From a bacterium (GTDB lineage Archaea > Nanobdellota > Nanobdellia > SCGC-AAA011-G17 > GW2011-AR17), in the NCBI GenBank assembly GCA_030697685.1, contig JAUYPF010000059.1:1-38526 (forward strand): a stretch of 38,526 nucleotides of DNA, read 5' to 3'. Numbering within the stretch: the stretch's first letter is position 1; the number at the start of each line of letters is the position of its first letter. Positions 5,601 to 34,822 of this stretch are shown here, in pieces. The position numbers were made by a program, and so were the translations under genes. Below the pieces are notes generated by a model that was not told where the DNA came from, did no database searches, and worked only from the letters and a program-made list of their open reading frames with translations.

Positions 5601-5650
5601 TCGAAAAAAGAAAAATAGCCCCACCAGGATTCGAACCTGGGTCTCGACCT

Positions 5651-5667
5651 TACTTCATGTTGCCACT
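5651..5667 (-). other. Canonical-position intron of tRNA-Gln, 17 nt
   Basis: AGTGGCAACATGAAGTA separates nucleotide 37 (G) from nucleotide 38 (A). Without it the anticodon loop is CTTTGGA. A one-base shift of the borders is possible. Confidence 0.8.
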
Positions 5668-5696
5668 CCAAAGGGTCGAATGATTGGCCGCTACAT

Positions 5697-5728
5697 TCCA
5701 TAAATATTGCAAAAAACAACACTTTCTA
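5697..5728 (-). other. Non-canonical intron of tRNA-Gln between acceptor and D stem
   Basis: Thirty-two nucleotides stand between the 5' acceptor strand and the D stem where only nucleotides 8 and 9 belong, so about 30 nt must be removed. The segment is T/A rich and can form TTG-TTTTTTG-CAA. The exact splice sites cannot be fixed by eye. Confidence 0.7.
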
Positions 5729-5776
5729 TGGGGCTATAAATGCGACCAAGGGTAAGGATTAAAAAAGAGCTTCCCT

Positions 5777-13402: not shown

Positions 13403-14086
13403 ATGAACAAAAAAGAAACAAGTATTTTATTTGCACTTATCTTCATTCCTCCTATCCTTCTTCTCATCAGTAGACAACTTCTCCCGACAAACTATCTTTC
13501 CTCTTCTCTGTACAAAATAACTTTCCTTTTTCCTTTCTTCTACTACATCTTTCTAGAGAAAAAATCACTAAAAACAATCTACAAAGAAAATTTCTCCCTA
13601 AAAATATTCAAAGAAAACTGGAAAAAGATGTTAGTTCTAGGCATCACTGCTGCATTAATCTATCTCGGAACATTTTTTCTTCTCAAAGGATTTCTAGATC
13701 TCCCAACAATCACAGACAAACTCCAAACATTAGCATCTATTAACACGACAAATATTATTTTCATAGGAATTTACATTATAATCATAAACTCCTTACTCGA
13801 AGAATTTTTTTGGAGAGGGTTTTTATTTAAAAAGTTAAAAGAGAACATTGGAAACAAATCCTATTTCATTACTGGCCTAGCTTTCTCCTTTCACCACATC
13901 ATGTTTTATTATGATTGGTTCACTCTTCCATTTTTCCTTATAATCACAGGAGGATTAACAATCTATGCAATAATAATGAACTACATCTTCAACAAATATC
14001 AAGACCTCTATTCATGTTGGTTTGTACATGCAATAGCCGACACTGCACAGATACTTATTGCATTAATTATTTTTGGAATACTCTAA
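13403..14086 (+). CDS. CPBP (CAAX/bacteriocin-processing) intramembrane protease
   Basis: The 227-aa product is strongly hydrophobic with about six to seven helices and has the CPBP motifs: EEFFWRG (133-139), FSFHH (161-165) and SCWFVHAIAD with His at 209. These residues form the glutamate/histidine active site of Rce1-like proteases. It acts in the membrane; the substrate is unknown. The ATG is probably leaderless. The 3' end overlaps the MCM gene tail by 4 bp in a convergent arrangement. Confidence 0.9.
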   Translation: MNKKETSILFALIFIPPILLLISRQLLPTNYLSSSLYKITFLFPFFYYIFLEKKSLKTIYKENFSLKIFKENWKKMLVLGITAALIYLGTFFLLKGFLDLPTITDKLQTLASINTTNIIFIGIYIIIINSLLEEFFWRGFLFKKLKENIGNKSYFITGLAFSFHHIMFYYDWFTLPFFLIITGGLTIYAIIMNYIFNKYQDLYSCWFVHAIADTAQILIALIIFGIL

Positions 14087-16104
14087 ATCTTTTGCAACCA
14101 ACCTTTCTTCGGCTCATAGAAATCACCAGCACGTTTGAGCATATCAATTGCTTCTTCTAATTTCTTCTCAGTAATACCTTTCGCAAACACCTTAGGCTTT
14201 AAATCATCTTCAACACTAATAGGCCCGCCTTGCTTTTCCTCAGAAAGTGCATACAATACTTCTTTCACATCAATAATTCTCCCACGTACAGAAGCACTAA
14301 TCCCAGTAGTCATGCGATCAATATCGATCTTTCCAGTCTCTGGATCCATTCCAACTTCTGTCATACACCATTTCATAAGAGCTATAGCTCGCAAAGCATC
14401 TTCTTCTTCGACTTCTTTTTTTAATTTAATTCGTGCAGAAGCCTCTGCTAATCGCACAATTGCTTCTAACTGCCGCGCAGAAATAGGAATAGGTTTGATT
14501 GCAGCATTACCCATAGATCCAGTCGAACGCAATTCAACGTAAAATTTCTTAATAGTCTCTACAGCTTGGTCAGTAAGCACAGGGAATATTTTTTGCTTCG
14601 CATAGGCAAGATATTTTCGCAAAAAAGGTCCATCAATTTCTGGAGCAACATCCTTATAAGAATGTGATTGAAGAACCCGTGTAGCAATATTCCCATCCAA
14701 TTCCTTATTTGGAATATCTCGAATAATAAAAATAAGATCAAATCGATTAATTAAAGCTGGAGGCATATCAATTTGTTGAGGTATAGGTGTAAATGGATCA
14801 AACCTTCCTAATTTAGGATTAGCTGCTGCAAGAATAGATGTTCTCGTGCGTAAAGTTGCTTGAATGTTCGCTTTTGCAATACTCACTTGCTGTTGCTCCA
14901 TCGCCTCGTGAAGCGCAGAAGTATCTTCATCAGAAATTTTATCCATTTCATCAAGTACAAGAATTCCTTTATCAGCAAGAACCATTGCTCCGGCTTCTAA
15001 AGCAAAGCCTCGCAAGAATTCATCCTTAACAATTGCAGCAGTTAAACCAACCCCGCTAGCAGATCGTCCTGCAACATATCGTGCTTTCGGTGCAGTTTTA
15101 TGAACAAAAGTAAGCAATTGGCTTTTTCCCGCACCTGGATCACCACATAAAAGTATATGAGAATCTCCCCTAACAATAGTTCCATCCTTCTTCACTTTTC
15201 GTATACCACCAAACATCTGCAAAATAATTGCCTCTTTAATTTTTTCATGTCCATAAATAGAAGGGGCAACACTTGCTATCAATCGCTGGTATACTTTTGG
15301 ATCTTTCGCTAATTTTTTAATTTCTTTCTCATCCTCTGGTGTAATATTAATCTCAGAATAATCTTCTTCCACAGGCTCAATATAATTTGCTTGCATCGCT
15401 AAATCAAACCGTGTCGATGTTGCACCAGTTTTTGTTTGTATAGGCACTTCATACAAAGACCCATTCACCACAATTCGTGTTCCTGGTGTTGTTCTTTTCT
15501 CCATTCGCGGCTCTACAAGATCTTCTCTCAAAAAAATCTGCATCCTCTTCGGTTGCGCACCACCTTCAAGATTTTCAGGAGACTCTTCAATAACCAGTCG
15601 TTGCACATCCACAAGATCTTTAGAGAGTAAGCGAAATTTTCCTTTCCTTCCACAACTGCATCTGCTTGGTTCTCGAAACTGCTGATCAACTTGAGGCATA
15701 GTAATCGTATTCCCACATGAAGGACACTCAAACTTTGCACTCACTGCTTGTGGCCGTACTTCAGAGCTTTGTCTGATTACGCCTTCCATCGCAATAAAAC
15801 GATTGAGATGCTTGCTTCGCAAATTACGAATATAAATTTCTTCAGATTTAGGTAAATTTCGAAATCGCACACGAAAACCTTTTTTTACTTCAAACTGCTC
15901 TAAAGCCATTTCTGCAGCTTTCACAGTTTCTTCTGGTTCCAAAAGCAACTGGTCTGCAAGTTTAGGATCATATTTTGTAAGATCAAAGAAATCAATGAGT
16001 ATAAATTGCAAACCTTTATTCATATGTTCATGCAATTGCTGTTGATAGCTCTGCTCAATAAACTCCTGAAATTTTTCTATTTGCTCTGCTGCATCTATAG
16101 CCAT
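14083..16104 (-). CDS. mcm: Replicative helicase MCM
   Basis: The 673-aa product has the full archaeal MCM order: N-terminal A domain, zinc site CPSC (127-130) paired with CSC (149-151, a CxC rather than CxxC), OB-fold beta hairpin region, AAA+ core with Walker A GDPGAGKS (321-328), Walker B VLDEMD (383-388), sensor 1 AAANP (426-430), INRFDLIF arginine-finger region (453-460), and a C-terminal winged helix ending FYEPKKGWLQKI. It unwinds DNA at the fork as a hexamer. No intein is present. A TATA box at 16127-16135 gives a leaderless mRNA; a repeat operator-like site lies between it and the PIN gene. Confidence 0.97.
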   Translation of the reverse strand: MAIDAAEQIEKFQEFIEQSYQQQLHEHMNKGLQFILIDFFDLTKYDPKLADQLLLEPEETVKAAEMALEQFEVKKGFRVRFRNLPKSEEIYIRNLRSKHLNRFIAMEGVIRQSSEVRPQAVSAKFECPSCGNTITMPQVDQQFREPSRCSCGRKGKFRLLSKDLVDVQRLVIEESPENLEGGAQPKRMQIFLREDLVEPRMEKRTTPGTRIVVNGSLYEVPIQTKTGATSTRFDLAMQANYIEPVEEDYSEINITPEDEKEIKKLAKDPKVYQRLIASVAPSIYGHEKIKEAIILQMFGGIRKVKKDGTIVRGDSHILLCGDPGAGKSQLLTFVHKTAPKARYVAGRSASGVGLTAAIVKDEFLRGFALEAGAMVLADKGILVLDEMDKISDEDTSALHEAMEQQQVSIAKANIQATLRTRTSILAAANPKLGRFDPFTPIPQQIDMPPALINRFDLIFIIRDIPNKELDGNIATRVLQSHSYKDVAPEIDGPFLRKYLAYAKQKIFPVLTDQAVETIKKFYVELRSTGSMGNAAIKPIPISARQLEAIVRLAEASARIKLKKEVEEEDALRAIALMKWCMTEVGMDPETGKIDIDRMTTGISASVRGRIIDVKEVLYALSEEKQGGPISVEDDLKPKVFAKGITEKKLEEAIDMLKRAGDFYEPKKGWLQKI

Positions 16105-16150
16105 ATCCCTAAAGGACTATTTTTCAAATATAAAGATTTAGGTGTTTTTT

Positions 16151-16165
16151 CCGGAAGATTTTCGG
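16151..16165. promoter_or_regulatory. Dyad operator-like element, site 1 (MCM / PIN1)
   Basis: CCGGAAGATTTTCGG, with CCG and CGG ends in dyad symmetry, lies between the MCM TATA box and the PIN1 TATA box (TCTTTTTAAG, 16181-16190). Together with the following GATTTTTCGT it matches the right half of the site at 36551. Confidence 0.55.
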
Positions 16166-16211
16166 ATTTTTCGTATAAGGTCTTTTTAAGCCGACAAGTC
16201 TACTAGCTAAA

Positions 16212-16619
16212 ATGACAAAATATTATATAGATTCTTGTATTTTGTTGAATCTTCTAAACAAAGAACAAAATAAAGTACAAGGAATACCTGTATGGAAGAT
16301 TGCTGAACTATTTTTAGAGCAGTATAAAAAGGATATCACCTTCTCAGATTTTGTAATAAATGAGCTCTATAATAAAATAAGTGAAGATCAGATAAAATAA
16401 TTAATTAAATATGGAGAAATGATCAATACAACAACAGAAGAATATGCTTTTGCAAAGGAAATAGAATCTTTAGAAAGATACACACTTTCTTTTTATGACT
16501 GCATCCATCTAGCTATTTGTATAAAACGAAATATAGTTCTTATAACAAGAGATAAAGAACTTCTTGAAAAAGGAAACAAATATATAACCACAATAAAACC
16601 AGAAATAATTATATACTAG
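16212..16619 (+). pseudogene. PIN-domain toxin gene interrupted by an in-frame TAA
   Basis: The frame starting at ATG 16212 hits TAA at 16398-16400 and then continues in the same frame to 16619. The two parts together align end to end with the intact 136-aa PIN protein at 16905-17315: same start (MTKYY.DSCI..LN), same NKEQNKVQG, same LSFYDCIHL and LITRD. The Asp residues of the PIN active site are kept, so the nonsense codon may be recent. TATA lies 26 bp upstream. Its 3' end overlaps the opposing small gene by 11 bp. Confidence 0.8.
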
Positions 16620-16797
16620 ATTTTTTAAATACAATACCTGCTTTTTTAAGTTTATCATCTACTTCTTTTTGCATTTTCTGAACATCTTCCCATGACTTAA
16701 TCTTCTTAGACTCTTCCCAACGAAACTTTCGAATATCTGCAATAGTCTGCTCACTCTCAGAAAGAGGCTTTTGTTTCATAACACTCACTGTTTTCAT
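16609..16797 (-). CDS. Putative antitoxin of the PIN pair, unit 1, 62 aa
   Basis: The product begins MKTVSVMKQKPLSESEQTIA and its first 34 residues are identical to the 61-aa protein at 17305-17490, after which the C termini diverge (SWEDVQKMQKEVDDKLKK). Small charged helical proteins with an IRKFRWEESK-like segment next to PIN genes are typical antitoxins. The gene runs towards the PIN gene and overlaps its tail by 11 bp. TATA at 16820-16828 is about 27 bp upstream. Antitoxin function is inferred from context. Confidence 0.7.
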   Translation of the reverse strand: MKTVSVMKQKPLSESEQTIADIRKFRWEESKKIKSWEDVQKMQKEVDDKLKKAGIVFKKSSI

Positions 16798-16843
16798 ACC
16801 CTAAGAAAGAAATCTAAAACTTATAAAAGTTTCTGTCCCTTTT

Positions 16844-16857
16844 CCGAAGGATTTCCG
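16844..16857. promoter_or_regulatory. Dyad operator-like element, site 2
   Basis: CCGAAGGATTTCCG lies between the minus-strand TATA of the unit 1 antitoxin (16820-16828) and the plus-strand TATA of PIN2 (CTTTTTAAGC, 16875-16884). Its position between two divergent core promoters suits an operator. Confidence 0.6.
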
Positions 16858-16904
16858 CTTTTTTCTCAGAAGAGCTTTTTAAGCAAATAAATCTTATAGG
16901 TTAA

Positions 16905-17315
16905 ATGACAAAATATTATGTAGATTCTTGTATTTGGTTGAATTTTCTAAACAAAGAACAAAATAAAGTACAAGGTTTGCCAGTATGGAAGCTTACAGAA
17001 GAATTTCTAAGGCAATGTGATGATAAGATAATTACTTCAAAATTTGTAGTGAAAGAAATTGCCGATAAAGTCAAAGATCAAAGAATGATGTTAAGACTAG
17101 AGAGATATATTTCAACAAAATGGACAAAAGAAGAGATTTTTCCATTAGCAAAAGAAATGGAATCAAAAGAAAAATATATGCTATCTTTTTATGATTGTAT
17201 ACACCTCTGCATTGCAATAAAAGAAAACTACGTACTAATAACCAGAGATGAAAGGCTTCTTACAATCGCAAAGAAATATATTGAAGCCATAAAACCTGAA
17301 GAAATTATTTATTAG
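16905..17315 (+). CDS. PIN-domain ribonuclease, VapC-like toxin
   Basis: The 136-aa product starts MTKYYVDSCIWLN with the first PIN Asp at residue 7 and has Glu in VVKEIADKV, then LSFYDCIHLCIA and LITRDERL with the later acidic residues, the normal PIN order. VapC-type toxins cleave tRNA or rRNA. TATA is 25 bp upstream, so leaderless. It is a tandem duplicate of the broken copy at 16212; similarity is very high at the 5' end and around the FYDCIH segment and lower between. It converges on an antitoxin-like gene with an 11-bp overlap. Confidence 0.88.
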   Translation: MTKYYVDSCIWLNFLNKEQNKVQGLPVWKLTEEFLRQCDDKIITSKFVVKEIADKVKDQRMMLRLERYISTKWTKEEIFPLAKEMESKEKYMLSFYDCIHLCIAIKENYVLITRDERLLTIAKKYIEAIKPEEIIY

Positions 17316-17490
17316 CTTTAATTTTCTTATAAAGAGTATCTATTTCTTCATCTAAATCTTTACAATACTTCTCAAAATCTTCATAAGTCTTAATCTTCTT
17401 AGACTCTTCCCAACGAAACTTTCGAATATCTGCAATAGTTTGCTCACTCTCAGAAAGAGGCTTTTGTTTCATAACACTCACTGTTTTCAT
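17305..17490 (-). CDS. Putative antitoxin of the PIN pair, unit 2, 61 aa
   Basis: The N-terminal 34 residues equal those of the unit 1 protein (start MKTVSVMKQKPLSESE), but the C-terminal half differs (TYEDFEKYCKDLDEEIDTLY). This is what is expected if the C terminus recognises the cognate toxin and the N terminus shares another role such as DNA binding or folding. The TATA box at 17512-17520 is about 26 bp upstream. It overlaps the 3' end of the PIN gene by 11 bp. Function is inferred from context. Confidence 0.7.
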   Translation of the reverse strand: MKTVSVMKQKPLSESEQTIADIRKFRWEESKKIKTYEDFEKYCKDLDEEIDTLYKKIKANK

Positions 17491-17536
17491 ACCCTAAGAA
17501 AAAGATCTAAAACTTATAAAAGTTTCTCTCACCTTT

Positions 17537-17551
17537 CCGAAGGATTTCCGG
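17537..17551. promoter_or_regulatory. Dyad operator-like element, site 3
   Basis: CCGAAGGATTTCCGG lies between the minus-strand TATA of the unit 2 antitoxin (17512-17520) and the plus-strand TATA of vapB (GATTTATTAAG, 17567-17577). The 14 bases shared with site 2 are identical. Confidence 0.6.
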
Positions 17552-17598
17552 ATTTTAGAACAAAAGATTTATTAAGAAGTAATACTAGTAATACAAGT

Positions 17599-17844
17599 AT
17601 GAAAACTATACAACTGAGTGTAAAAGAAGTGAATGAAGAAATATTTAGAGAATTTAAAGCAGAATCAACAAGAGAGGGTCTAAAGGTAGGGCAAGCCTTA
17701 ACCTTAGCAATGGAACAATGGCTGAGTCACGAAAAAAGAAGACCAAAACTAAGCCTTCTAAACCTAAAGCCTATAAAGGGAGGAAAGGGAACAGAAAGAT
17801 TAAGTGAAAATATAGACAAAGTTCTGTATGAAGAAGAATGGTAA
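17599..17844 (+). CDS. vapB: VapB-like antitoxin, ribbon-helix-helix type
   Basis: From ATG 17599 the product is 81 aa; a longer frame upstream covers the promoter and is not used. Residues 1-45 (KTIQLSVKEVNEEIFREFKA, then VGQALTLAMEQWL) fit a ribbon-helix-helix DNA-binding domain: one strand and two helices. The C-terminal part (KPIKGGKGTERLSENIDKVL) would wrap the toxin. The gene overlaps the PIN gene by 7 bp, the standard VapBC layout. Autoregulation through site 3 is plausible. Confidence 0.8.
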   Translation: MKTIQLSVKEVNEEIFREFKAESTREGLKVGQALTLAMEQWLSHEKRRPKLSLLNLKPIKGGKGTERLSENIDKVLYEEEW

Positions 17845-18239
17845 TTTTTATTGATGCGAATATTTTCTGTGCAATCATAAATGAAAATGATGTCCACCAC
17901 AAAAAAGCAAAAGAGATTATAGAAAAATACACAAAAGAGAAACAACACTTCATAACAACAGACTATATTTTTGACGAAGCAGTAAGCGTAACACAACGAA
18001 AACTAGGAAAACAAGCAGCAATTCTATTAGGGAGACACATCCTTCATGGAGAAGTATATTTTATTCAAATAGACAAAAAAAAATGCAATAAAGCATGGAA
18101 AATCTTTCAAGAAGAGAATAATTTTAGCTTTACAGATTGTACAAATATAGCATGCATGCAAGAGCTAAACATAAAACAAATAGCAACATTTGATAAAGAA
18201 TTTAAGAAAGAAAAAGGAATTGAAGTTATTGATAACTAA
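17838..18239 (+). CDS. vapC: VapC-like PIN-domain toxin
   Basis: The 133-aa product has the PIN residues in order: MVIFIDANIF (Asp6), YIFDEAVS (Glu), FSFTDCTNIACM (Asp) and IATFDKEF (Asp). It is a different PIN branch from the two upstream copies. It starts inside the vapB 3' end (7-bp overlap) and is translationally coupled. Its stop codon overlaps by a few bases the end of a small-gene remnant on the minus strand. Confidence 0.9.
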   Translation: MVIFIDANIFCAIINENDVHHKKAKEIIEKYTKEKQHFITTDYIFDEAVSVTQRKLGKQAAILLGRHILHGEVYFIQIDKKKCNKAWKIFQEENNFSFTDCTNIACMQELNIKQIATFDKEFKKEKGIEVIDN

Positions 18240-18335
18240 TAAACATAAATTTTTTTCCCAATGATACGTTCAAATTCATCATGAGCTTCTTTTTCATACT
18301 TTTGAAGATCTTCCAAAGTTTTTTTGAAATATTTC
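18236..18335 (-). pseudogene. Remnant of an antitoxin-like gene converging on vapC
   Basis: A minus-strand frame ending in TAG at 18236-18238 encodes KTLEDLQKYEKEAHDEFERI and a short tail, resembling the C-terminal half of the 61-aa protein at 17305 (TYEDFEKYCKDLDEEIDTLY). The N-terminal half and the promoter are missing; the neighbouring gene cluster begins instead. It repeats the tail-to-tail geometry of the two preceding units. Confidence 0.5.
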
Positions 18336-18339
18336 TACT

Positions 18340-18690
18340 CTAAGAAGCCATAAATTCCAAAAGAGACGCAGGAATGCCAGAACAAATACCTACACAGAGG
18401 GCCATGCTAGAACCAATAAAACCTAAATAACTTATAAGTACAGGTTTTGTGTAATTCCATCGTTTTGCACGAAGTTCAGGTGTCTCAAAAACACGAGGAT
18501 CAAGATCTTCTCCTGTAAAAGCTTTGTGAACACCAAGAGTAACACCCTGACCAATACCTTCACCAACAGCATAACCTAAAGATGTTGCATAAGCAGAACC
18601 TAATTTTGGTAAAAAGCTTCGAACACCATACGCACCACCAGCGATAAGTCCAGCTGTACCAGTAACAATAGTTATAGTTTCAAGATCCAT
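18340..18690 (-). CDS. Hypothetical membrane protein, 116 aa
   Basis: Glycine/alanine-rich N-terminal hydrophobic stretch (TIVTGTAGLIAGGAYGV) and a second one near the C terminus (ISYLGFIGSSMALCVGICSG) suggest two membrane segments around a polar loop with PRVFETPELRAKRW. It is the last gene of the cluster downstream of TBP and starts 2 bp after the previous stop with GGAGAGGG as ribosome binding site. No family is recognised. Confidence 0.75.
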   Translation of the reverse strand: MDLETITIVTGTAGLIAGGAYGVRSFLPKLGSAYATSLGYAVGEGIGQGVTLGVHKAFTGEDLDPRVFETPELRAKRWNYTKPVLISYLGFIGSSMALCVGICSGIPASLLEFMAS

Positions 18691-18692
18691 TT

Positions 18693-19025
18693 TTATTCCC
18701 TCTCCAAAGCAGATCTATATAAGTTTCGCAAAGTCACACCAGTACCATCATCAAAATAAACACCATGACTCACCCTTCTATCCAAAGGAATGATAAGAGA
18801 AACAGCAGCTCGATAAATAACACTTCCTTTTCCAAAACTCCAACAAGAAAGACTATACTGAAGAGCTTCATCAGAAAGAACACGAAAGAAAACACCTTCA
18901 CCAACAAGATCTTTTCGCGTGAAAGAAAGGCTCTCTACTTTTGCAAACAAATCTTCCTTTGTGAGAAGTCTATTCTTAGTCAAATTCTTCAAACTAGTAC
19001 TTTCAAAAGCCTGAACAGAATTCAT
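18693..19025 (-). CDS. Hypothetical soluble protein, 110 aa
   Basis: The product lacks membrane segments and has a mixed alpha/beta look (FGKGSVIYRAAVSLIIPLDR, then GVYFDDGTGVTLRNLYRSAL). It is the only clearly soluble member of the small-gene cluster behind TBP. Its ATG overlaps the upstream stop as ATGA with AGGAG before it, so translation is coupled. Family and role are not recognised. Confidence 0.75.
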   Translation of the reverse strand: MNSVQAFESTSLKNLTKNRLLTKEDLFAKVESLSFTRKDLVGEGVFFRVLSDEALQYSLSCWSFGKGSVIYRAAVSLIIPLDRRVSHGVYFDDGTGVTLRNLYRSALERE

Positions 19026-19222
19026 GATATTCTCCTCTCTTCTTTTTCTTTAAATATTTCAGAAATATCTCCACCATCTCTTTCACTTGAAAGACCAAGT
19101 CTATCTGCACAACAAAAATAACTCAAAGTACCTATTCCAACAACAAGAACAGCTAATCTATAAGGGAGAGGAATACTCAAAATTTCTCGATCTAATTCTC
19201 GTAATTCATATTCTAATCCCAT
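19022..19222 (-). CDS. Hypothetical single-span membrane protein, 66 aa
   Basis: One hydrophobic helix at about residues 20-40 (YRLAVLVVGIGTLSYFCC) is preceded by an acidic N terminus and followed by a charged tail. TAGGAGAATACAATG gives a clear ribosome binding site overlapping the previous gene's stop. It is part of the tightly packed TBP-linked cluster. No family is recognised. Confidence 0.72.
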   Translation of the reverse strand: MGLEYELRELDREILSIPLPYRLAVLVVGIGTLSYFCCADRLGLSSERDGGDISEIFKEKEERRIS

Positions 19223-19231
19223 TGTATTCTC

Positions 19232-19426
19232 CTACCATCCATTCCGTGCAAGAACACCAACAACTAAAACAACACTAAGTCCAAAAAACATTATAGCAAA
19301 GTTTGAAGAACTAACTGTTCCATTCAGAAAATAAGTCATCAACAGATAAACTACTGACCAGATAAGAGAAATAAGAACAGCATCCTTTCCTTTGAATAAT
19401 ATCTTAGGTATAGCTTTTTTTATCAT
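19232..19426 (-). CDS. Hypothetical two-span membrane protein, 64 aa
   Basis: Two hydrophobic helices (LISLIWSVVYLLMTYFL at 18-34 and FAIMFFGLSVVLVVGVLA at 43-60) are joined by a short polar turn and preceded by a basic N terminus, giving a hairpin with both ends inside. The ATG directly follows the preceding TAA. No family is recognised. Confidence 0.75.
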   Translation of the reverse strand: MIKKAIPKILFKGKDAVLISLIWSVVYLLMTYFLNGTVSSSNFAIMFFGLSVVLVVGVLARNGW

Positions 19427-19729
19427 TTAATTCACCTTCCCTTCTATAGTTTTTCTATTTCTATAAAGACTAATTATACCTACAGCCCCAAAAAGCATTG
19501 CACCTGCACCAGCATAAGGAAAAGACTTTTCTTCAACTAAATCATGTACTTCAGAAGGAGATTCTCCGGTGATCAGATTTTTTTGGGTATCATATCCAAA
19601 ATAGTTTAAAACAGGAATGCTACCTAAAAGTATAGCACCAAGAGCAGCAGAATAAAAAAGACCTTGTGAAAGAAATCTTATCCTCTCAAAACTTATTTCT
19701 GGTTCAAAATCATAAGGGTTATCTTTCAT
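19427..19729 (-). CDS. Hypothetical two-span membrane protein, 100 aa
   Basis: Hydrophobic segments at about 30-50 (FYSAALGAILLGSIPVLNYF) and 73-90 (YAGAGAMLFGAVGIISLY) flank a polar loop of about 22 residues. AGGAGAAAATA precedes the ATG. It follows the upstream gene after 12 bp. No family is recognised. Confidence 0.75.
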   Translation of the reverse strand: MKDNPYDFEPEISFERIRFLSQGLFYSAALGAILLGSIPVLNYFGYDTQKNLITGESPSEVHDLVEEKSFPYAGAGAMLFGAVGIISLYRNRKTIEGKVN

Positions 19730-19741
19730 TATTTTCTCCTA

Positions 19742-20032
19742 TCACCGTAAATAAGCATTGCCTTTCTCATCAAAAGATAAAGTATATCTTTTACTCATAT
19801 CTAAAGTACTAGGTAACTCAATCTTTCCATCCTTGTCTTCATCTTGAAGTTCTATTTCTAATGGATTTAAAACACCTTGTTTCATATCATCAATTTTTGA
19901 GATAGAAAATACTGCCACACCCACAATAAAAGTTATTCCTACCCCTAAAAGAGTTAAAGGATGATAAATAACTGCCTTAAAATCCTCTAGACTTATTGAT
20001 TCTGGCGATCTCTCAGGAAAAAGTTCTCCCAT
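19742..20032 (-). CDS. Hypothetical single-span protein with an EF-hand-like loop, 96 aa
   Basis: One membrane helix at about 29-48 (LTLLGVGITFIVGVAVFSI) separates an N-terminal arm from a C-terminal domain of about 45 residues. That domain has DEDKDGKIELPS, which fits the spacing of an EF-hand or dockerin-type calcium loop (D-x-D-x-D-G-x-I). The ATG comes 2 bp after the TBP stop codon, so it is co-transcribed with tbp. Calcium binding is only a suggestion. Confidence 0.75.
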   Translation of the reverse strand: MGELFPERSPESISLEDFKAVIYHPLTLLGVGITFIVGVAVFSISKIDDMKQGVLNPLEIELQDEDKDGKIELPSTLDMSKRYTLSFDEKGNAYLR

Positions 20033-20034
20033 TT

Positions 20035-20583
20035 CTACTTATAACCCACCTTAGCCAATTCTTTAATCAAAAGGTCAACAGCTTCATGCAATTTTGCTTC
20101 TGATCGTGTACCAGTACAAACAATCTTTCCATTACTGAAAAGCAAGAACGTCGCTCGAGTATTAGGTAATTTATACACCAATCCTGGAAATTGTTCAGGT
20201 TCATATTCAGTATTACTTAATTGAATAGCCAATGCATTCAGGTTCAAATCTATCCCAATAGAACCAGCTGCAACAAGGTTTTGTACAGTAAATTTAGGCT
20301 GTACAGTAATTTTCACTTTGATCTTTTCTACATTCTTAATAATCATATCAATAGAATCTTTCACAATTTGCATGCTTTTCGCACCAGTACAAACAATTTT
20401 ACCAGAACTAAAAATTAATGCAGAAGTTTTAGGGTCTTTAATTCTCATAACCAAACCCGGAAACTGCTCAGGATTATACTCTGTATTAGGAAGTGCCTCA
20501 GCCAACTTCACTAAAGGAATTGCTCGCTCAAGAGAAGCAGTAGCAACAATATTTACTATTTTAATTTCTTTTTTTACTGCCAT
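20035..20583 (-). CDS. tbp: TATA-binding protein
   Basis: The 182-aa product shows the two direct repeats of about 90 aa that form the TBP saddle: repeat 1 with NTEYNPEQFPGLVMRIKDPK and FSSGKIVCTGAKS, repeat 2 with NTEYEPEQFPGLVYKLPNTR and FSNGKIVCTGTRS. It recognises TATA boxes for all promoters. Unlike most leading genes here it has a leader, with GGAGG 9 nt before the ATG and TATA boxes at 20633-20650. It heads a run of seven genes. Confidence 0.98.
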   Translation of the reverse strand: MAVKKEIKIVNIVATASLERAIPLVKLAEALPNTEYNPEQFPGLVMRIKDPKTSALIFSSGKIVCTGAKSMQIVKDSIDMIIKNVEKIKVKITVQPKFTVQNLVAAGSIGIDLNLNALAIQLSNTEYEPEQFPGLVYKLPNTRATFLLFSNGKIVCTGTRSEAKLHEAVDLLIKELAKVGYK

Positions 20584-20632
20584 TGTATAGCCTCCAAGAT
20601 ATATTTTAACTGTTTAAGTGAGTCAAAACCTC

Positions 20633-20650
20633 TTTATAAAGGTATTTAAA
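20633..20650 (-). promoter_or_regulatory. TATA region of the tbp cluster
   Basis: Two adjoining AT-boxes on the minus strand, TTTAAATA and TTTATAAA, lie 50-67 bp before the tbp ATG. Two alternative starts or autoregulation by TBP occupancy are possible. Confidence 0.5.
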
Positions 20651-20746
20651 GCTATGCTATCCCCTAGAAGAGACTATTTAAGAAGAATTCTTGTAATTTA
20701 AGTAAAAGCAAAACTTCTTTAAAAGTGTATGCTTTAGGAAAAGAAG

Positions 20747-21618: not shown

Positions 21619-22476
21619 TTAAGACTGACGCTTTTTATCTTCAATAACTTTTTTTGAAGAACCTTCTAAATATTTTTTTGCATTCTCAGAACTAACAACA
21701 CTTCTTCCCAATTGTTTCTCAATATCCTTTCGTGCATTCCCTGCAACACTTCCTCCCTTCACAGCAATACCCTTACTTTCCACAAAAGTTTTAGGATTCT
21801 CCTTTTTTGAAATCTCTGTTGTTGTAGCTTCTGCAAGCATATTCAAAACAAGTTCTATATTAGTCATATTATCCCTCAAACTCTCCATTTTGAGATTTTT
21901 TAATTGCTTATATTCCGTAACAGTTTTTCCTGACCAAGCTTTCGTAATCTCATTAGTCAGTATAGCATAATCAGATTGTTTCTCTATGCCAGACCTATTC
22001 CACTCATCAGTCAAATCTTTTCTGATCTCAATAGTCTTAAGCCTTTGATTAATCCATTCCTTTGAATAACCCTTTTGCAGATATGTTCTCATAGCTCTCT
22101 CAAATGCAAGCTCTGGATCCTCTGTTTCCTCAATTCGTTCATATCCTACTTTCGCAAGCCAAATTTTGAATGGCTCTGCATTTTTTGATGGTATGGATTG
22201 CACAAGACGAAGAACTTGCTCTGTATCTGCAACATCTGTAAGTCTCATCTTACCATCTGGAGCAAGCATTTTCAACACGTTACAATTTGTAACGCTTTGA
22301 TTACCTTCATCAAGTAATCGTTTCTTTAAAACTCTCCAATATACTTGAGGATTCTCACTAATAGTAAGAACTTCTATAACATCAACTATTGAAAAATACC
22401 ATTTTTGTTCATCTTCAACCCACTGAACCCGTACATTTTTATTTTCAAATAACTTAATGGAATGATCTTTGTTCAT
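21619..22476 (-). CDS. BRO-N domain protein (DinD-like)
   Basis: The 285-aa product has the BRO N-terminal pattern: IKLFENKNVRVQWVEDEQKW, FSIVDVIEVLT, YWRVLKKRL, LAPDGKMRLTDVADTEQVLR and LVQSIPSKNAEPFKIWLAKV. The rest resembles the DinD/DNA-damage-inducible relatives with a predicted helical C terminus. BRO-N domains bind DNA and are common in phages, viruses and mobile elements, so this may be an acquired gene. It has a strong ribosome binding site AAGGAGG 11 nt before the ATG and its TATA box at 22531-22540. Confidence 0.85.
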   Translation of the reverse strand: MNKDHSIKLFENKNVRVQWVEDEQKWYFSIVDVIEVLTISENPQVYWRVLKKRLLDEGNQSVTNCNVLKMLAPDGKMRLTDVADTEQVLRLVQSIPSKNAEPFKIWLAKVGYERIEETEDPELAFERAMRTYLQKGYSKEWINQRLKTIEIRKDLTDEWNRSGIEKQSDYAILTNEITKAWSGKTVTEYKQLKNLKMESLRDNMTNIELVLNMLAEATTTEISKKENPKTFVESKGIAVKGGSVAGNARKDIEKQLGRSVVSSENAKKYLEGSSKKVIEDKKRQS

Positions 22477-26779: not shown

Positions 26780-29700
26780 ATGCAAGACTCTACAATTTGG
26801 ACAGAAAAATACCGCCCACAAAAATTCTCAGAAGTCAAAGGCCAAACAAAGATAGTAGAGCGAATAAAAGCATTTGTAGAACAAAAAAATATGCCACACA
26901 TCCTCTTAGCAGGTCCGGCCGGCGTTGGAAAGTGTATAAAGGGAGATACCCCAATACTTACAGGACAGGGTGAACTAACCACAATAGAAGAAGCTTATAA
27001 TCAAAAATGTAAAGAAGTCATGTCTATTAATCATCAAGGAAAAATAAAAAAAGGAAAAATAGCCTATTTTTACAAAGGCAAAACAGAAAAAACAATCTAT
27101 ATAAAAACAGAAAAAGGTGATGAAGTCACATCAACTCCAGATCACCCTTATTTAATATTAAGAGAAGGTTTACCCATTTGGTGTAAAGCTGAAGAACTAA
27201 AACTAAGTGATTTAGTAGCTACCCCAACAAAAACAATTTTTTCTATAAAGAAGCCAACTATCACTTGGGGAGGAATACCAAATATTTGGGCAGAATTATT
27301 TTCTCCAGAAACAAGACCAAGCAATCAAATGTATATAGGAGTAAAAAAAGATATAATAGTCTATTTAGAAAAGAAGATTTTTTCTTCAAGTATAGATATA
27401 GCAAAAGCAACAAAAACAAAAAGGGGAACAGTAAACATCTGTCTAAACCAATTAAACAATGAAGGAATCATATCTTTCCAAAAGAAATATCCACTAACGG
27501 TAAAATTAGAGAAAAAAGAAATCCTAACAAATACATTACCTCTTGAAAAAATAAAAGATTTATCTACAATCAAAAGGGTCTTTGATAAAACACAGAATAA
27601 AACCTCTACAAAAATTACATTTTTTCAAAATCCCAGTCCAGCTTTTTATGAATGGCTAGGATATGTATGGGGAGATGGCCATATTACAAATTCTTCAATT
27701 ATTTTAACAAATAAAAACGAAGGAATAAGAAAAAATTTTATCCAACTTTCAAAAGAAATATTTGGACCAGAATTAAAAATAGTTGAAAGAACAACAGGGA
27801 AAGAAGAAGTAAATATTCAAAAAGTCAGTTCAATTTGTAAGTTATTAGAAATAAATTACAAGATTAAAAGGGACAAGAAAAAGGCGCATTTAATAACAGT
27901 TCCAAAAGAATTATACAGATGTGAATCAGAGTATATTACAAGATTTATAGACGCATTTTACTCTTGTGATGGATATTACTCAAAAAAGAAAAGGTACATT
28001 GAAATTTCCTCAAGAAGTAAATCTTTTATTATGGGTTTAAAATACTTATTAGTAAGATTAGAGATCCTATCTAAAACACATACAAAATATGGGCAATATT
28101 ATTTAACTGTTTCTGGTGGGAAAGATGTAGAAAAATTTAGAGATACAATAAAACCAAAATTTAAAAAAATACCTGAGAAAATACTCCATGAAACAAATAA
28201 TGATTTACTTAAAATACCTAAGAACCTATCATTCACTCTACAATCATTAGGCATTAGAAGAAAAGAATTAGGAAGAAAAAAAGAGCTAGAGTATCTTTTT
28301 GAAAGAAAAACAGGTTCAAGAACCAAAATTATAAATCTCTATAAAAAAATTATCTCACTTTCAAGAGACAGGATTTTTGAAGCTTTAAAAACAATTGAGC
28401 TAATTAATTCAGTTAAAGAAGAGTCTTTAAAAGAGATGATAGAAAGCCATTTAAAAAAACTAAAGGACTATTCCTTTCGTAAACAGATACAACAAAAATC
28501 AAAAATAAAATACGACCGATTAAAAGAGTATTATAATCATAAAAGACAACCCAACCTTAAGAACTTATTAAAAGTTATTGATTCTATAGGAGAAATAACA
28601 AAAGAAAACCAAGAATTAGGAGAAAAAATAAGAAAAAAAGTAACTATCACCTTAGCAATTATAGAAACACTTCAAAAATTAAACATTAGCTTCGAAGAAA
28701 TTGCAAGAAAAAACAAATATCTAGTAAAATCCACATCTACAAATTATATATTAAGTAACAACAATAATATTTCCTTAGAAGGAGTCTATAACTTAGAGAC
28801 AATCTCAGAAACAATTAAAGAAATTATAACTGAAAGAATATATTCCGAAGAGACTATAAAAACACTTGAGGCTATAGAATTCCTTTCAGAAGCAGATTTA
28901 GCTTGGACAAAAGTCAAAGAAAAAAGAGAAGAGGGAGAAGCAACAGTTTTTGATCTCAACATAGAAGAATATCACAATTTTATTGGGGGACATGGCCCAT
29001 TAGTCCTACATAATTCAACTTTAGCCTTAGTAGTCGCAAAAGAACTTTTCAAAGAGGACTGGAAACAAAGTTTTTTAGAGCTTAATGCGTCGGATGATCG
29101 CGGCATCGATGTCGTAAGACACACTATTAAAGAATTTGCAAAAACAAAATCAATGAACAATGTACCATTTAAAATTATTTTTCTTGATGAATGTGACTCA
29201 TTAACAAAAGAAGCACAACAAGCATTAAGAAGAACCATGGAAAGCTACGTCGTTACAACTCGCTTCATCCTCAGTTGCAATTTTTCATCAAAAATAATCG
29301 ACCCAATACAAAGTCGCTGTTCTGTCTTTCGCTTTAAACCTCTTATAGAATCAGAACTCAAAGATTATATTCTAAATATCGCACAACGCGAACAGTTGCA
29401 AATTAATGATAAAGCAATTACTGCACTTGTAGATATAAGCAATGGTGACGTAAGAAGAATAACCAACATCCTTCAAAGTTGTTCTTCTATTGATAAGAAC
29501 ATTACAGAAGAATTAATTTATTCTTTAGTCTCGGCAGCAGAACCAAAAGAAATAAAAGAAATTCTTACTTTAGCAATAAATAGACAATTCATCAAAGCAA
29601 GATCTCTCTTATTAGATACCATGCTCAAGCATGGATTATCAGGTATAGATATTCTCAAGCAAATTCAAAAAGAAACTCTAGAACTATCTACAATTTCTGA

Positions 29701-29812
29701 TGAAAAAAGAATTGAGCTCATTGATAAATGTGGAGAGATAGAATTTAGAATGGTAGAAGGGTCAGACGAATTTATCCAACTTGAAGCCTTACTTGCGAGT
29801 TATGCAAAATGA
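26780..29812 (+). CDS. rfcS: Replication factor C small subunit, precursor with intein
   Basis: The 1010-aa precursor gives, after intein removal (residues 52-745), a 316-aa clamp-loader subunit: TEKYRPQKFSEVKGQ, P-loop GPAGVGK-(intein)-STLALVVA, LNASDDRGIDVVR, Walker B IIFLDECD, sensor 1 FILSCNF and the QSRC arginine-finger motif. It loads PCNA with RFC-L. The last codon overlaps RFC-L's ATG (ATGA), so both are translated together. Splicing is essential because the intein divides the ATP-binding loop. Confidence 0.96.
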   Translation: MQDSTIWTEKYRPQKFSEVKGQTKIVERIKAFVEQKNMPHILLAGPAGVGKCIKGDTPILTGQGELTTIEEAYNQKCKEVMSINHQGKIKKGKIAYFYKGKTEKTIYIKTEKGDEVTSTPDHPYLILREGLPIWCKAEELKLSDLVATPTKTIFSIKKPTITWGGIPNIWAELFSPETRPSNQMYIGVKKDIIVYLEKKIFSSSIDIAKATKTKRGTVNICLNQLNNEGIISFQKKYPLTVKLEKKEILTNTLPLEKIKDLSTIKRVFDKTQNKTSTKITFFQNPSPAFYEWLGYVWGDGHITNSSIILTNKNEGIRKNFIQLSKEIFGPELKIVERTTGKEEVNIQKVSSICKLLEINYKIKRDKKKAHLITVPKELYRCESEYITRFIDAFYSCDGYYSKKKRYIEISSRSKSFIMGLKYLLVRLEILSKTHTKYGQYYLTVSGGKDVEKFRDTIKPKFKKIPEKILHETNNDLLKIPKNLSFTLQSLGIRRKELGRKKELEYLFERKTGSRTKIINLYKKIISLSRDRIFEALKTIELINSVKEESLKEMIESHLKKLKDYSFRKQIQQKSKIKYDRLKEYYNHKRQPNLKNLLKVIDSIGEITKENQELGEKIRKKVTITLAIIETLQKLNISFEEIARKNKYLVKSTSTNYILSNNNNISLEGVYNLETISETIKEIITERIYSEETIKTLEAIEFLSEADLAWTKVKEKREEGEATVFDLNIEEYHNFIGGHGPLVLHNSTLALVVAKELFKEDWKQSFLELNASDDRGIDVVRHTIKEFAKTKSMNNVPFKIIFLDECDSLTKEAQQALRRTMESYVVTTRFILSCNFSSKIIDPIQSRCSVFRFKPLIESELKDYILNIAQREQLQINDKAITALVDISNGDVRRITNILQSCSSIDKNITEELIYSLVSAAEPKEIKEILTLAINRQFIKARSLLLDTMLKHGLSGIDILKQIQKETLELSTISDEKRIELIDKCGEIEFRMVEGSDEFIQLEALLASYAK
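26933..29014 (+). mobile_element. RFC-S intein with LAGLIDADG homing endonuclease, 694 aa
   Basis: The intein starts with Cys (CIKGDTPIL, block A), has TSTPDHPYLI (block B), two LAGLIDADG-like motifs (LGYVWGDGHI and FIDAFYSCDGYY), VFDLNIEEYHNFIG (block F) and ends HN before an extein Ser. It sits between Lys and Ser of the P-loop, the site known from other archaeal RFC inteins. Between block B and the first endonuclease motif lies a winged-helix-like segment (SIDIAKATKTKRGTVNICLN), and after the second motif about 200 residues of helical, basic sequence. It is larger than most inteins (350-550 aa). Confidence 0.93.
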
Positions 29813-32143: not shown

Positions 32144-34822
32144 ATGGCCTTTAACATTATCGTAGGAAGAAACGAAGAAGACAAAAAAAAATTTGGAGAT
32201 AGAGGAACTATCCTCCTAGGAAGAGCCTATGTAAAAATGGGACAAACAACATCTCTTTCTAACTATGTCTACCTCGATGTAATCAAAGCCCATGTGGTGT
32301 TTGTCGTCGGCAAAAGAGGATCTGGAAAATCCTACTCAGCTTCTGTCATCGCAGAAGGCATAATCGACCTCCCAGAGGAAGCATCAAAAAATATTGCAGT
32401 GATTATGTTAGACACCATGGGCGTATTCTGGACGATGAAATATCCCAATGAAAAGGATGCAGATTTATTAGAAGAATGGAATCTAAAACCCAAAGGCATG
32501 GAAAAAATAAAAGTATTTACACCATTCGGAAAATTTGAAGATGCAAAAAATAAAGGTGTCCCCACAGACTATCCTTTTTCTATCAAAGCTTCTGAACTCA
32601 CTGGAGAAGATTGGCGCCTAGCATTTGAACTACCAGCATCACACCCTGTTTCTATTCTTATTGAAAAAGTCCTAGGAGATTTTGCAGAAAATAAAATTGA
32701 AGAATATACCATTGATATGATGATTACTACATTTGAAAAAGAAAATACATTCCCAGTAGATGTACGCAATGAAGGAATAAACAAATTACGAGCTGCAAAA
32801 CGTTGGGGTCTTTTCTCAGATGAAGGAACTAAGATTGATGTACTCATTAAAGGTGGAACAGTTTCTATCTTAGATATGTCTGCATATGCAACTTCTGAAG
32901 GTGGCTGGGGCGTCAAAGCTCTAGTTGTAGGTTTAATTTGTAAAAAAGTATTCATTGAACGAATGATCTCCCGTCAGTTAGAAGAAGTAGAAGCAATCAA
33001 AGTAGGTTATTCCTATTTCAAAATGGAAGAAGAAGTAGAAACAGAAGAAAAAAAACCTTTAGTCTGGTTCCTTTTAGATGAATGTTTAACAGGAAAAACC
33101 ACTATAGATACATCCTATGGAAAAGATAAACTTTCAAATATAATTAAAAAACACAAACAAGGAGAAAATATAACAGTGCTTTCATTTAATCAAATAACTA
33201 AAAAGCTAGAATATAAGCCTATCACAAAGGTGTATGAAAAAGGAAAGAAAGAGATTATAAGAATAAAAACTGAAACAGGTCAGGAATTAGAATGCACAGA
33301 GAATCATAAAATTCAAACAATAAATGGCTTTCAAGAAGCTTATTTAGCAGAAGAAATTGCTATTCCTATCAATACACCTTACAGAAATAATAAAGAGCTC
33401 ATAATAGCACGTTTATTTGGATCAATCATTGGTGATGGCTATCTAAACCAAAAAGGAACTGTAGTCGGATTTTCAGGGAAGGGCTCAGAAGAAGATCTTT
33501 TAAGAATAAAAGAAGACTTAAAAGAATTAGGATTTACATCCAGTAAAATTCAAACCAGACAAACAAAGTCATATATAACTACCACTTACGGAAAAACACA
33601 CGAAGTAATAGGAATAAGCCAGGAGTTTACTTCTAGCACAAAATGCCATAAATTCTTTAAAGAGAAAGGTGCTCCTATAGGCAAAAAAATACAAAGCGCA
33701 TTCAGAATCCCAAAATGGCTAAAAGAAGCAAACCTAGAAGTCAAAGCAGAATTTCTAGCTGCATTATATGGAGCAGACGGAATGGCACCAAGTATTTCTA
33801 AAGCCTGCAAAAGAGATTTTAATCCTATTAGGCTTAGTTTCAATTATATCCTCACCAATGAAGAACATGCAAAAAAATATACAGAAGATTTAGTAAAACT
33901 TTTAGAGGATTTAGGAATACAAAAAAATAAAATCTCTCAAAGAGAAGGAAATATAAGAAAAGATGGAAAAAAAACAGGAAAAATAATTATTACCTTGTCT
34001 AAAGAAACAATAAATACCATTAGATATTTAGATAATATAGGATACCGATATTGTAACAAAAAAGAAGTCGCAGGAAAAAAATGGCTTGAATATCTTAAGG
34101 CAAAAAAATTTGAAGAAAGTAGAATCCTAAAATTAAAAGAAACTGCAATAACTATACATAAAACACAAGGCCTAGGAAAAATAAGAATTGCAAAAATTCT
34201 AGATGTTAAACCCTATCAAGTAAGAGACTGGATTTATTATGATATTAAAACGAGAAGCCAAAATTCTTTTCAAAATTTTGAAGAATGGGTAAAAGAAAGA
34301 GTATTTGAAAATCAAATTTTTGAGAGGATCATAGAAAAAGAGAAACTTGGCCAAAAAGAGGTTTTTGATATTTCTGTAGAAGGGAACCATACATTTATAG
34401 CAAATAGTTATATTGTACACAACTGCCACGAACTCCTTCCAGCAGAGGGAAAAACTGCAGCAACAGATGCTCTGGTTACAATCCTCAGAGAAGGAAGACA
34501 ACCAGGAATTTCTCTTTTACTTATTTCACAACAGCCTGGAAAGATCCACTCAGATGTATTAACACAATCAGATATTGTTATTGGGCATAGACTTACTGCA
34601 AAACGTGATATAGACGCACTGAACTCTATGATGCAATCTTATTTAGGAAACACTTTAACAGGATACTTAAACACACTTCCTTCAGAGCCAGGAGCGGCAA
34701 TCCTTCTCGATGATAACTCTGAAAGACTTTTTCCCATTCGAACAAGGCCTAAGTTCTCTTGGCATGGTGGAGAAGCACCTACAGCAATCAAATACAAGCG
34801 TTCTGCAAATCTAGGCATCTAA
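32144..34822 (+). CDS. HerA-like/DUF87 ATPase, precursor with intein
   Basis: The 892-aa precursor contains, after removal of residues 314-760, a 445-aa ATPase of the HerA/FtsK group: VVFVVGKRGSGKSYSASVIA (Walker A 56-63), IAVIMLDTMGVFWTMKYP, SILDMSAYA, Walker B VWFLLDE-(intein)-CHELLPAEG, then LREGRQPGISLLLISQQPGK with the sensor-like QQP and DIVIGHRL. HerA-type motors translocate DNA, often with NurA; NurA is not seen here. The RlmE gene begins 1 bp after the stop. Confidence 0.9.
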   Translation: MAFNIIVGRNEEDKKKFGDRGTILLGRAYVKMGQTTSLSNYVYLDVIKAHVVFVVGKRGSGKSYSASVIAEGIIDLPEEASKNIAVIMLDTMGVFWTMKYPNEKDADLLEEWNLKPKGMEKIKVFTPFGKFEDAKNKGVPTDYPFSIKASELTGEDWRLAFELPASHPVSILIEKVLGDFAENKIEEYTIDMMITTFEKENTFPVDVRNEGINKLRAAKRWGLFSDEGTKIDVLIKGGTVSILDMSAYATSEGGWGVKALVVGLICKKVFIERMISRQLEEVEAIKVGYSYFKMEEEVETEEKKPLVWFLLDECLTGKTTIDTSYGKDKLSNIIKKHKQGENITVLSFNQITKKLEYKPITKVYEKGKKEIIRIKTETGQELECTENHKIQTINGFQEAYLAEEIAIPINTPYRNNKELIIARLFGSIIGDGYLNQKGTVVGFSGKGSEEDLLRIKEDLKELGFTSSKIQTRQTKSYITTTYGKTHEVIGISQEFTSSTKCHKFFKEKGAPIGKKIQSAFRIPKWLKEANLEVKAEFLAALYGADGMAPSISKACKRDFNPIRLSFNYILTNEEHAKKYTEDLVKLLEDLGIQKNKISQREGNIRKDGKKTGKIIITLSKETINTIRYLDNIGYRYCNKKEVAGKKWLEYLKAKKFEESRILKLKETAITIHKTQGLGKIRIAKILDVKPYQVRDWIYYDIKTRSQNSFQNFEEWVKERVFENQIFERIIEKEKLGQKEVFDISVEGNHTFIANSYIVHNCHELLPAEGKTAATDALVTILREGRQPGISLLLISQQPGKIHSDVLTQSDIVIGHRLTAKRDIDALNSMMQSYLGNTLTGYLNTLPSEPGAAILLDDNSERLFPIRTRPKFSWHGGEAPTAIKYKRSANLGI
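33083..34423 (+). mobile_element. HerA-like ATPase intein with LAGLIDADG endonuclease, 447 aa
   Basis: It begins with Cys (CLTGKTTIDT), has LECTENHKIQTING (block B), LAGLIDADG-like LFGSIIGDGYL and FLAALYGADGM, block F EVFDISVEGNHTF and ends VHN before extein Cys. The insertion lies directly after the Walker B acidic pair DE. A helix-turn-helix-like segment (GLGKIRIAKILDVKPYQVRD) follows the endonuclease core. A functional intein is suggested by complete splicing residues (C1, TxxH-like TENH, HN, C+1). Confidence 0.93.

Follow-up and report, generated by a model that had tools for sequence, protein, structure and literature searches.

Directly behind tbp, the gene for the TATA-binding protein (TBP), on an archaeal contig of 38,526 nt (JAUYPF010000059.1; the window, by which we mean the whole of this stretch, part of the 1.07-Mb genome G000 in 65 contigs), lie six small genes, g1 to g6, most of whose products are predicted membrane proteins. 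We rate it somewhat better than an even proposition that tbp leads an operon with a genus-specific, fast-turning tail of small membrane-protein genes, which has grown into the widespread junction between tbp and the replicative helicase gene mcm. This account is built on the coding character of the tail genes, their synteny and turnover among relatives, and the selection observed on g3 and g6. The run consists of the following genes (TM, transmembrane; the basis of each description in brackets):

20035 to 20583, minus strand: tbp, TATA-binding protein of 182 residues, head of the operon-like run (Pfam PF00352, 197 bits)
19742 to 20032, minus strand: g1, 96 residues, one TM helix followed by an acidic C-terminus with an incomplete EF-hand-like loop (hydropathy, codon usage)
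19427 to 19729, minus strand: g2, 100 residues, two TM helices (hydropathy, codon usage)
19232 to 19426, minus strand: g3, 64 residues, a two-TM hairpin with conserved F[KR]G[RK]DAV and RNG motifs (alignment A1)
19022 to 19222, minus strand: g4, 66 residues, one TM helix, ortholog in genome G006 (alignment A3, 48% identity)
18693 to 19025, minus strand: g5, 110 residues, predicted to be soluble (hydropathy, codon usage)
18340 to 18690, minus strand: g6, 116 residues, a TM segment, a glycine-rich middle and a second TM segment (alignment A2; equal length in three genus genomes)

An earlier note, made from the letters of the window, had described six small codirectional genes packed 2 bp behind tbp, and this description holds: all six open reading frames (ORFs) lie on the minus strand directly 3′ of tbp, encode 64 to 116 residues and, from tbp through to g6, follow one another at 2, 12, 0, 9, −4 and 2 bp, the negative value being a 4-bp overlap of g4 with g5. 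Five hydrophobic products and one soluble product had also been claimed, in agreement with our Kyte-Doolittle analysis, in which the best 19-residue means were 2.41 (g1), 1.83 (g2), 2.41 (g3), 1.67 (g4), 1.97 (g6) and 1.13 (g5); with the cut-off for small genes set at 1.6, all but g5 have a TM-like segment. The codon-usage scores of g1, g2, g4, g5 and g6 exceed those of all 97 spurious ORFs of similar size, and that of g3 exceeds 96 of the 97; all fall within the range of real gene segments, and two antisense ORFs, one of them at 18765-19121, score as spurious. With coding-type codon use in all six, and orthologs for g3, g4 and g6, g1 to g6 are real genes and not chance ORFs.

The place in which these genes stand is defined by the gene that usually follows tbp:

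14083 to 16104, minus strand: mcm, replicative helicase of 673 residues, the usual next gene after tbp in the order, here about 3.9 kb off (Pfam MCM, 305 bits)

We searched 60 genomes, that of the window included, and obtained a TBP match at E 1e-10 or better in 55. In 51 of these 55 stretches mcm lies downstream of tbp on the same strand; the four without it are those of G010, G021, G056 and G059, for which 0.7 to 5.1 kb of downstream DNA was examined. Gap lengths are estimates based on where tblastn matches ended, and since the genomes share ancestry the counts are not independent. Outside the genus, the tbp-mcm gap is at most 300 bp in 36 of 45 cases and exceeds 600 bp in nine; in the six genomes of the genus that have a TBP locus it is approximately 633-4315 bp (3930 bp in the window). 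The gap is thus widened in all six, and the membrane genes occupy a widened tbp-mcm junction. Between the window and the five other genus genomes that gave a match, TBP identity is 93-99%. Of the nine long gaps outside the genus, six also hold a lipoprotein-like or TM ORF on the tbp strand (G012, of the same family; G030, G032, G045, G055 and G058, of other families, G032 and G058 being related); G015, G029 and G054 have no clear ORF of this kind. By eye, a lipoprotein-like N-terminus is seen on such an ORF in four of the nine (L096 in G032, L098 in G058, L082 in G030 and L040 in G012), and OB-fold-like and aIF2-beta-like ORFs follow mcm in several genomes of the order. G007, a genome with a listed completeness of 100%, yielded no match to TBP at E 1e-10, and its genus mate G014 has a divergent TBP of about 60% identity. 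The MCM genes of G003 (L033:1-5067) and G001 (L037:922-4723) carry in-frame intein and LAGLIDADG endonuclease domains; a Pfam scan showed none in the MCM of the window.

Within the genus the tails open with one to six small, mostly membrane-protein genes that differ between genomes: g1-g2-g3-g4-g5-g6 in the window, g3-g6 in G002, g3-g4-g6 in G006, a different ORF followed by g3 in G004, three different small ORFs in G001 and a single different ORF in G003. Neither g3 nor g6 is present at the tbp site of G001 or G003; in G005 no TBP match was obtained, so that the tail position cannot be placed there. The earlier note had proposed gene order in relatives as a check, and the outcome is divided: the order g3-(g4)-g6 is preserved in G002 and G006, but g1, g2 and g5 were seen, among the genomes searched, in the window only, and G001 and G003 differ. 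In profile searches, g3 (A1) was found in four of 103 genomes of the order at E below 1e-30, each time in a tbp tail, and in two of 371 genomes of a phylum sample at 1e-4, G004 and G006 apparently having been left out of that sample. g6 (A2) was found in three of the 103, other genus copies being 65-68% identical to that of the window; it was not found in four of the seven genus genomes (G001, G003, G004 and G005; several are incomplete, and G005 lacks a TBP locus), and beyond the genus the 371 phylum genomes gave only one chance-level match. g4 was seen in two genomes (the window and G006), in a comparison confined to tbp loci. No credible relative was found of g1 in 20 genomes, of g2 in 60 (one weak match), or of g5 in 20 genomes and in the 371 of the phylum. 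At the DNA level, tbp of the window is 0.92 identical to that of G002, 0.86 to G006 and 0.83 to G003, and G001 and G004 form a pair (0.93). Given the presence pattern over these relationships, the simplest account is that the genus ancestor had g3, that G001 and G003 lost it, and that g1, g2 and g5 were gained in the window lineage, the alternative being loss elsewhere.

The ratio of nonsynonymous to synonymous substitution (omega, from dN and dS by the Nei-Gojobori method) is 0.03 for tbp, 0.06 for mcm (one pair), 0.25-0.42 for g6 and 0.27-0.57 for g3; several dS values are near 1 or above, and the figures are rough. Within the same genome pairs, dN is about 7-40 times as high for g3 and g6 as for tbp. 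Thus, g3 and g6 are constrained yet evolve far faster than their neighbours. The tail also stands out in composition: in five tbp-centred genus stretches, without G006 and with repeated counting of orthologs, a TM segment occurs in 11 of the 14 small genes in tbp tails as compared with one of 36 elsewhere. The run of seven from tbp to g6 is the longest tight run in these five stretches; elsewhere in 318 kb of the same genome, small genes on one strand never follow each other in runs longer than three.

The gaps of at most 12 bp, the Shine-Dalgarno sites and a recurrent 2-nt joint point indirectly to a shared transcript of tbp and its tail, and co-transcription is likely. Its probable start is the following element:

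20632 to 20651, minus strand: CTTTAAATACCTTTATAAAG, a promoter-like, conserved element ahead of tbp at which the shared transcript probably starts (TTTATAAAG core, similarly spaced from tbp in seven sequences)

A GGAGG site and the TTTATAAAG element precede tbp in all seven sequences compared, and we infer a promoter function for CTTTAAATACCTTTATAAAG. Individual GGAG sites, which the earlier note had assigned to all six genes, are present ahead of g2, g4, g5 and g6; g3 has GGTGA instead, and g1 only GGTGGG, located within tbp. For comparison, GGAG or GAGG lies upstream of 49 of 243 ORFs of more than 150 residues in the genome sample, a figure lowered by uncurated starts. The pattern agrees with that expected for internal genes of a polycistronic message. 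In five of the six genus genomes (G000, G001, G002, G003 and G006) 2 nt separate the tbp stop from the start of the first tail gene, and four gene families occupy this slot: g1, the g3 copy of G002, and the first ORFs of G001 and of G003, with no significant mutual similarity (z −0.2 to 2.4 in a shuffle test). Gaps of 2 nt account for six of 200 in the genome sample, two of the six being within the tbp-g6 run. The same joint is found in G012, from another genus of the family, where a lipoprotein-like ORF follows it; G047 has about 1 nt between tbp and the start of MCM. Either the joint is held by selection for coupled translation, or it was inherited while the gene bodies were swapped.

The earlier note was also right that none of the six is a recognised gene: all score below every curated cut-off in Pfam and NCBIfam, and PHROGs (best E 0.03) and PADLOC gave no credible match; for type IV pilins, likewise, Pfam gave no hit. 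The note had reported an EF-hand-like loop in one of the proteins; this loop, in g1, is incomplete. The EF-hand rule expects Glu at residue 12 of the loop; the loop of g1, DEDKDGKIELPS, has Ser there, and its 12.3 bits lie under the Pfam cut-off of 25.4, so that we do not regard g1 as an EF-hand protein. With one TM segment followed by a D-x-D-x-D-G loop, g1 is similar in plan to a family of small proteins of the genus (L111:10747-11100; L129, L130, L131) whose members share an Asp-rich loop (D-x-[DN]-x-DG) and an NW motif that is conserved; its matches in G002, G005 and G006 show 35-41% identity, and complete copies have, by eye, a hydrophobic N-terminal stretch. However, g1 has no significant sequence match to that family and, in its own genome, the family copy is not beside tbp; homology to the L111 protein was rejected (E 0.32), and only the architecture is shared. 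A number of weak matches were dismissed as chance: g2 (P0002) in G013 (E 0.006), g5 (P0005) in G004 (E 0.03) and G156 (7e-4 per genome, over 371 genomes), g6 (A2) in G180 (E 0.006), and g3 (A1) in G014, G023, G027, G096 and G097 (E 0.002-0.008). Those of g1 (P0001) in G020, G019 and G002 (E 0.04-0.35) were also dismissed, the ORFs at these loci appearing unrelated. Against PDB sequences the g6 profile gave two matches, at E 0.16 and 0.64, and g5 none, nothing meaningful; single-chain AlphaFold models were of low confidence (mean predicted local distance difference test score 47.7 for g6, mostly helical, and 42.8 for g5), and we assign no fold to either protein.

Homology among genes that replace one another was examined by block shuffling. 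Among 42 pairs, only the two known ortholog pairs exceeded z 2.5. When the test was extended to 14 tail proteins (91 pairs), the six g3-g3 pairs reached z 10-15, and two others were marginal, g2 with g4 (z 3.2; 2/300 shuffles) and g6 with an ORF of G001 (z 2.8; 2/300); such values are near chance expectation for 91 tests, and neither kinship was accepted. MAFFT did not align g2 convincingly with four tail ORFs from G001, G003 and G004, and the third tail ORF of G001 did not match L121:13293-13676. We do not claim a hidden common family among the tail proteins, very remote kinship being conceivable.

The closest published counterpart is the archaeal dark matter island. In the sections of Makarova et al. 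(2014; PMC4158269) that we draw on, these are contiguous five-gene regions in which at least four genes are uncharacterised or virus-related and occur in at most five archaeal genomes, as defined with archaeal clusters of orthologous genes in 147 genomes; they are enriched in small and TM proteins, and most of their membrane and secretory systems are held to act in conflict and communication. Lineage-specific hypothetical proteins are stressed for archaea generally in the part of PMC9258230 used here. Over the genomes searched in our study (20 for g1, 60 for g2, 20 plus 371 for g5; other archaeal phyla were not searched genome by genome), g1, g2 and g5 occur in one genome, g4 in two, g6 in three of 103 and g3 in four of 103, and all six families are uncharacterised. 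Over this sample the tail thus falls under the published definition. The tail is like the membrane class of islands in being a contiguous set of small, narrowly spread, TM-rich genes that vary among close relatives, and in the fast evolution of g3 and g6. It is unlike them in that it is joined codirectionally to a core gene, mostly by the 2-nt joint, between tbp and mcm, and in that the run itself has no recognised mobile-element gene. We found no paper on a tbp-linked membrane-gene tail, in a literature search that was thin on subscription journals.

The tail is a real but probably accessory gene island, and its products are probably envelope or interaction factors, a role suggested by their turnover, evolutionary speed and the published island class. 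RNA polymerase would start at the tbp promoter and read through into the tail; the first tail gene would be translated by stop-start coupling to tbp across the 2-nt gap, and most of the others from Shine-Dalgarno sites of their own. The products would insert into the cytoplasmic membrane in amounts tied to TBP, g3 and g6, with g4 in some species, perhaps forming a core pair or small complex to which g1, g2 and g5 would be species-specific additions. Turnover, together with fast evolution under constraint, would fit envelope factors that face a partner in flux (host cell, virus or competitor), in line with what has been proposed for membrane-type dark matter islands.

Several observations weigh against this account. 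Constraint on g4 is weak (omega 0.78, one pair), and since g1, g2 and g5 have no relative, the estimates of selection in the tail cover g3, g4 and g6 only. The TM enrichment is weaker in the wider sample of the genome itself (318 kb with the window), where TM segments are found in five of six tail genes and in 17 of the 84 remaining small genes (p = 0.003, a contrast chosen post hoc), and two tail ORFs, the only one in G003 (1.44) and the leading one in G004 (1.42), lie under the TM cut-off. G004 lacks the 2-nt joint, its first tail ORF starting 52 nt past the tbp stop, and the joint may be inherited rather than selected. Finally, the rest of the widened gap contains toxin-antitoxin genes in two genomes (G000 and G003) and larger unrelated ORFs in three (G001, G004 and G006), which argues for a general insertion site and not a membrane-gene slot alone; nothing notable fills the remainder of the gap in G002, where g3-g6 stand directly before mcm.

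Among the alternatives, birth of the tail genes de novo survives best, but we regard it as unlikely. Read-through from tbp would bring a T-rich spacer into translation, and TM ORFs would emerge there and be kept or lost, as in the TM-first model described from yeast in the portion of PMC7005711 we rely on. Like the emerging proteins of that account, the tail ORFs are small, mostly TM and different in each lineage, and some are T-rich: T makes up 38-42% of the coding strand in g3, g5 and g6 as compared with 29% in mcm and 33% in tbp. However, g1 and g2 are barely T-richer than tbp (34-35%), the codon usage of g1, g2 and g5 already resembles that of established genes, and g3 and g6 are common to several members of the genus and constrained, unlike the emerging proteins of that model. 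Another, distinctly unlikely proposal is that the tbp operon of this lineage is a standing expression platform, whose stop-start joint would repeatedly capture, or give birth to, dissimilar membrane micro-proteins. If so, the make-up of the envelope would be tied to the supply of a general transcription factor, and the lipoprotein-like or TM ORFs in the six long gaps outside the genus would be further uses of the platform.

On its mcm side the tail adjoins toxin-antitoxin-like genes, beginning with a remnant:

18236 to 18334, minus strand: antitoxin-like remnant, decayed, which immediately follows g6 and marks where the membrane-gene tail ends (third copy of repeat D3, at 18269-18314, 72%)

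Its frame reads KTLEDLQKYEKEAHDEFERIIGKKIYVY and resembles, by eye, the antitoxin-like copies nearby. A VapB-like ORF and a PIN toxin adjoin the tail at 17599-18239, with look-alikes, by eye, between tail and mcm in G003 (L033); genes of this type thus also belong to the widened junction. At 16129-17556 a toxin-antitoxin-like unit (PIN toxin on the plus strand, antitoxin-like ORF on the minus strand) is tandemly duplicated at a spacing of 693 bp (repeats D1 and D2); one PIN copy is intact at 16905-17315 (Pfam), and the other seems split into short ORFs at 16212-16400 and 16419-16619. The tail products might act as small membrane toxins, or as immunity proteins, within a conflict or addiction system tied to these neighbours. 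In favour of this, PIN-domain genes lie beside the tail in the window (Pfam) and, judged by sequence resemblance, in G003; but G002 carries g3-g6 directly before mcm without PIN genes and PADLOC gave no match, and we consider such a role improbable.

On the other side of tbp, a Bro-N domain gene (21619-22476) is flanked by genes for an SDR-family protein and a class I tRNA synthetase (I/L/M/V type). The Bro-N family is often linked to viruses. Intein domains occur in the genes for replication factor C and a HerA-like helicase (26780-29812 and 32144-34822, respectively), and a weak Rfam tRNA match at 5616-5735 (30.6 bits, 120 bases; absent from ARAGORN output) may be an intron-bearing tRNA. The small membrane proteins might have come from an integrated virus or plasmid of which the tail is a remnant, and such a source would suit ORFans that are small, hydrophobic and fast-evolving and have a Bro-N gene and toxin-antitoxin debris nearby, as it would the weak match of one G001 tail ORF to phrog_28582, of unknown function (E 0.007). 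Yet the tail has no recognisable integrase or capsid gene; the PHROGs result for g1 to g6 is that given above; no relative was found of g1, g2, g3, g5 or g6 in viral contigs (pattern-seeded searches; g4 not searched), nor of g6, the only one tested, in phage and plasmid records; and the distribution of g3 and g6 tracks the genus. This origin seems to us more improbable still.

The least probable reading is that favoured by the earlier note, a fixed, stoichiometric six-part envelope machine made together with TBP: tight packing, five membrane proteins and the g3-(g4)-g6 order preserved in G002 and G006 are in its favour, but the gene set is not conserved as a unit, only two or three of the six genes recur, other genes stand at the site in G001 and G003, and g6 was not found in four of the seven genus genomes, with the reservations noted above. 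Gaps of at most 12 bp are, moreover, ordinary in this genome (90 of 200 same-strand gaps in the own-genome sample), so that packing alone is no argument for a complex. A smaller g3-(g4)-g6 core is possible.

A tbp-led operon with a fast-turning tail would place a changing membrane-protein slot beside a core gene, and such a slot may serve as a compact natural record of how membrane genes originate or spread in archaea with reduced genomes. The tail also provides a short list of candidate envelope proteins for organisms whose interactions with their partners are hard to study. If the tail is indeed co-expressed with TBP, the composition of the envelope would be linked to the general transcription capacity of the cell.

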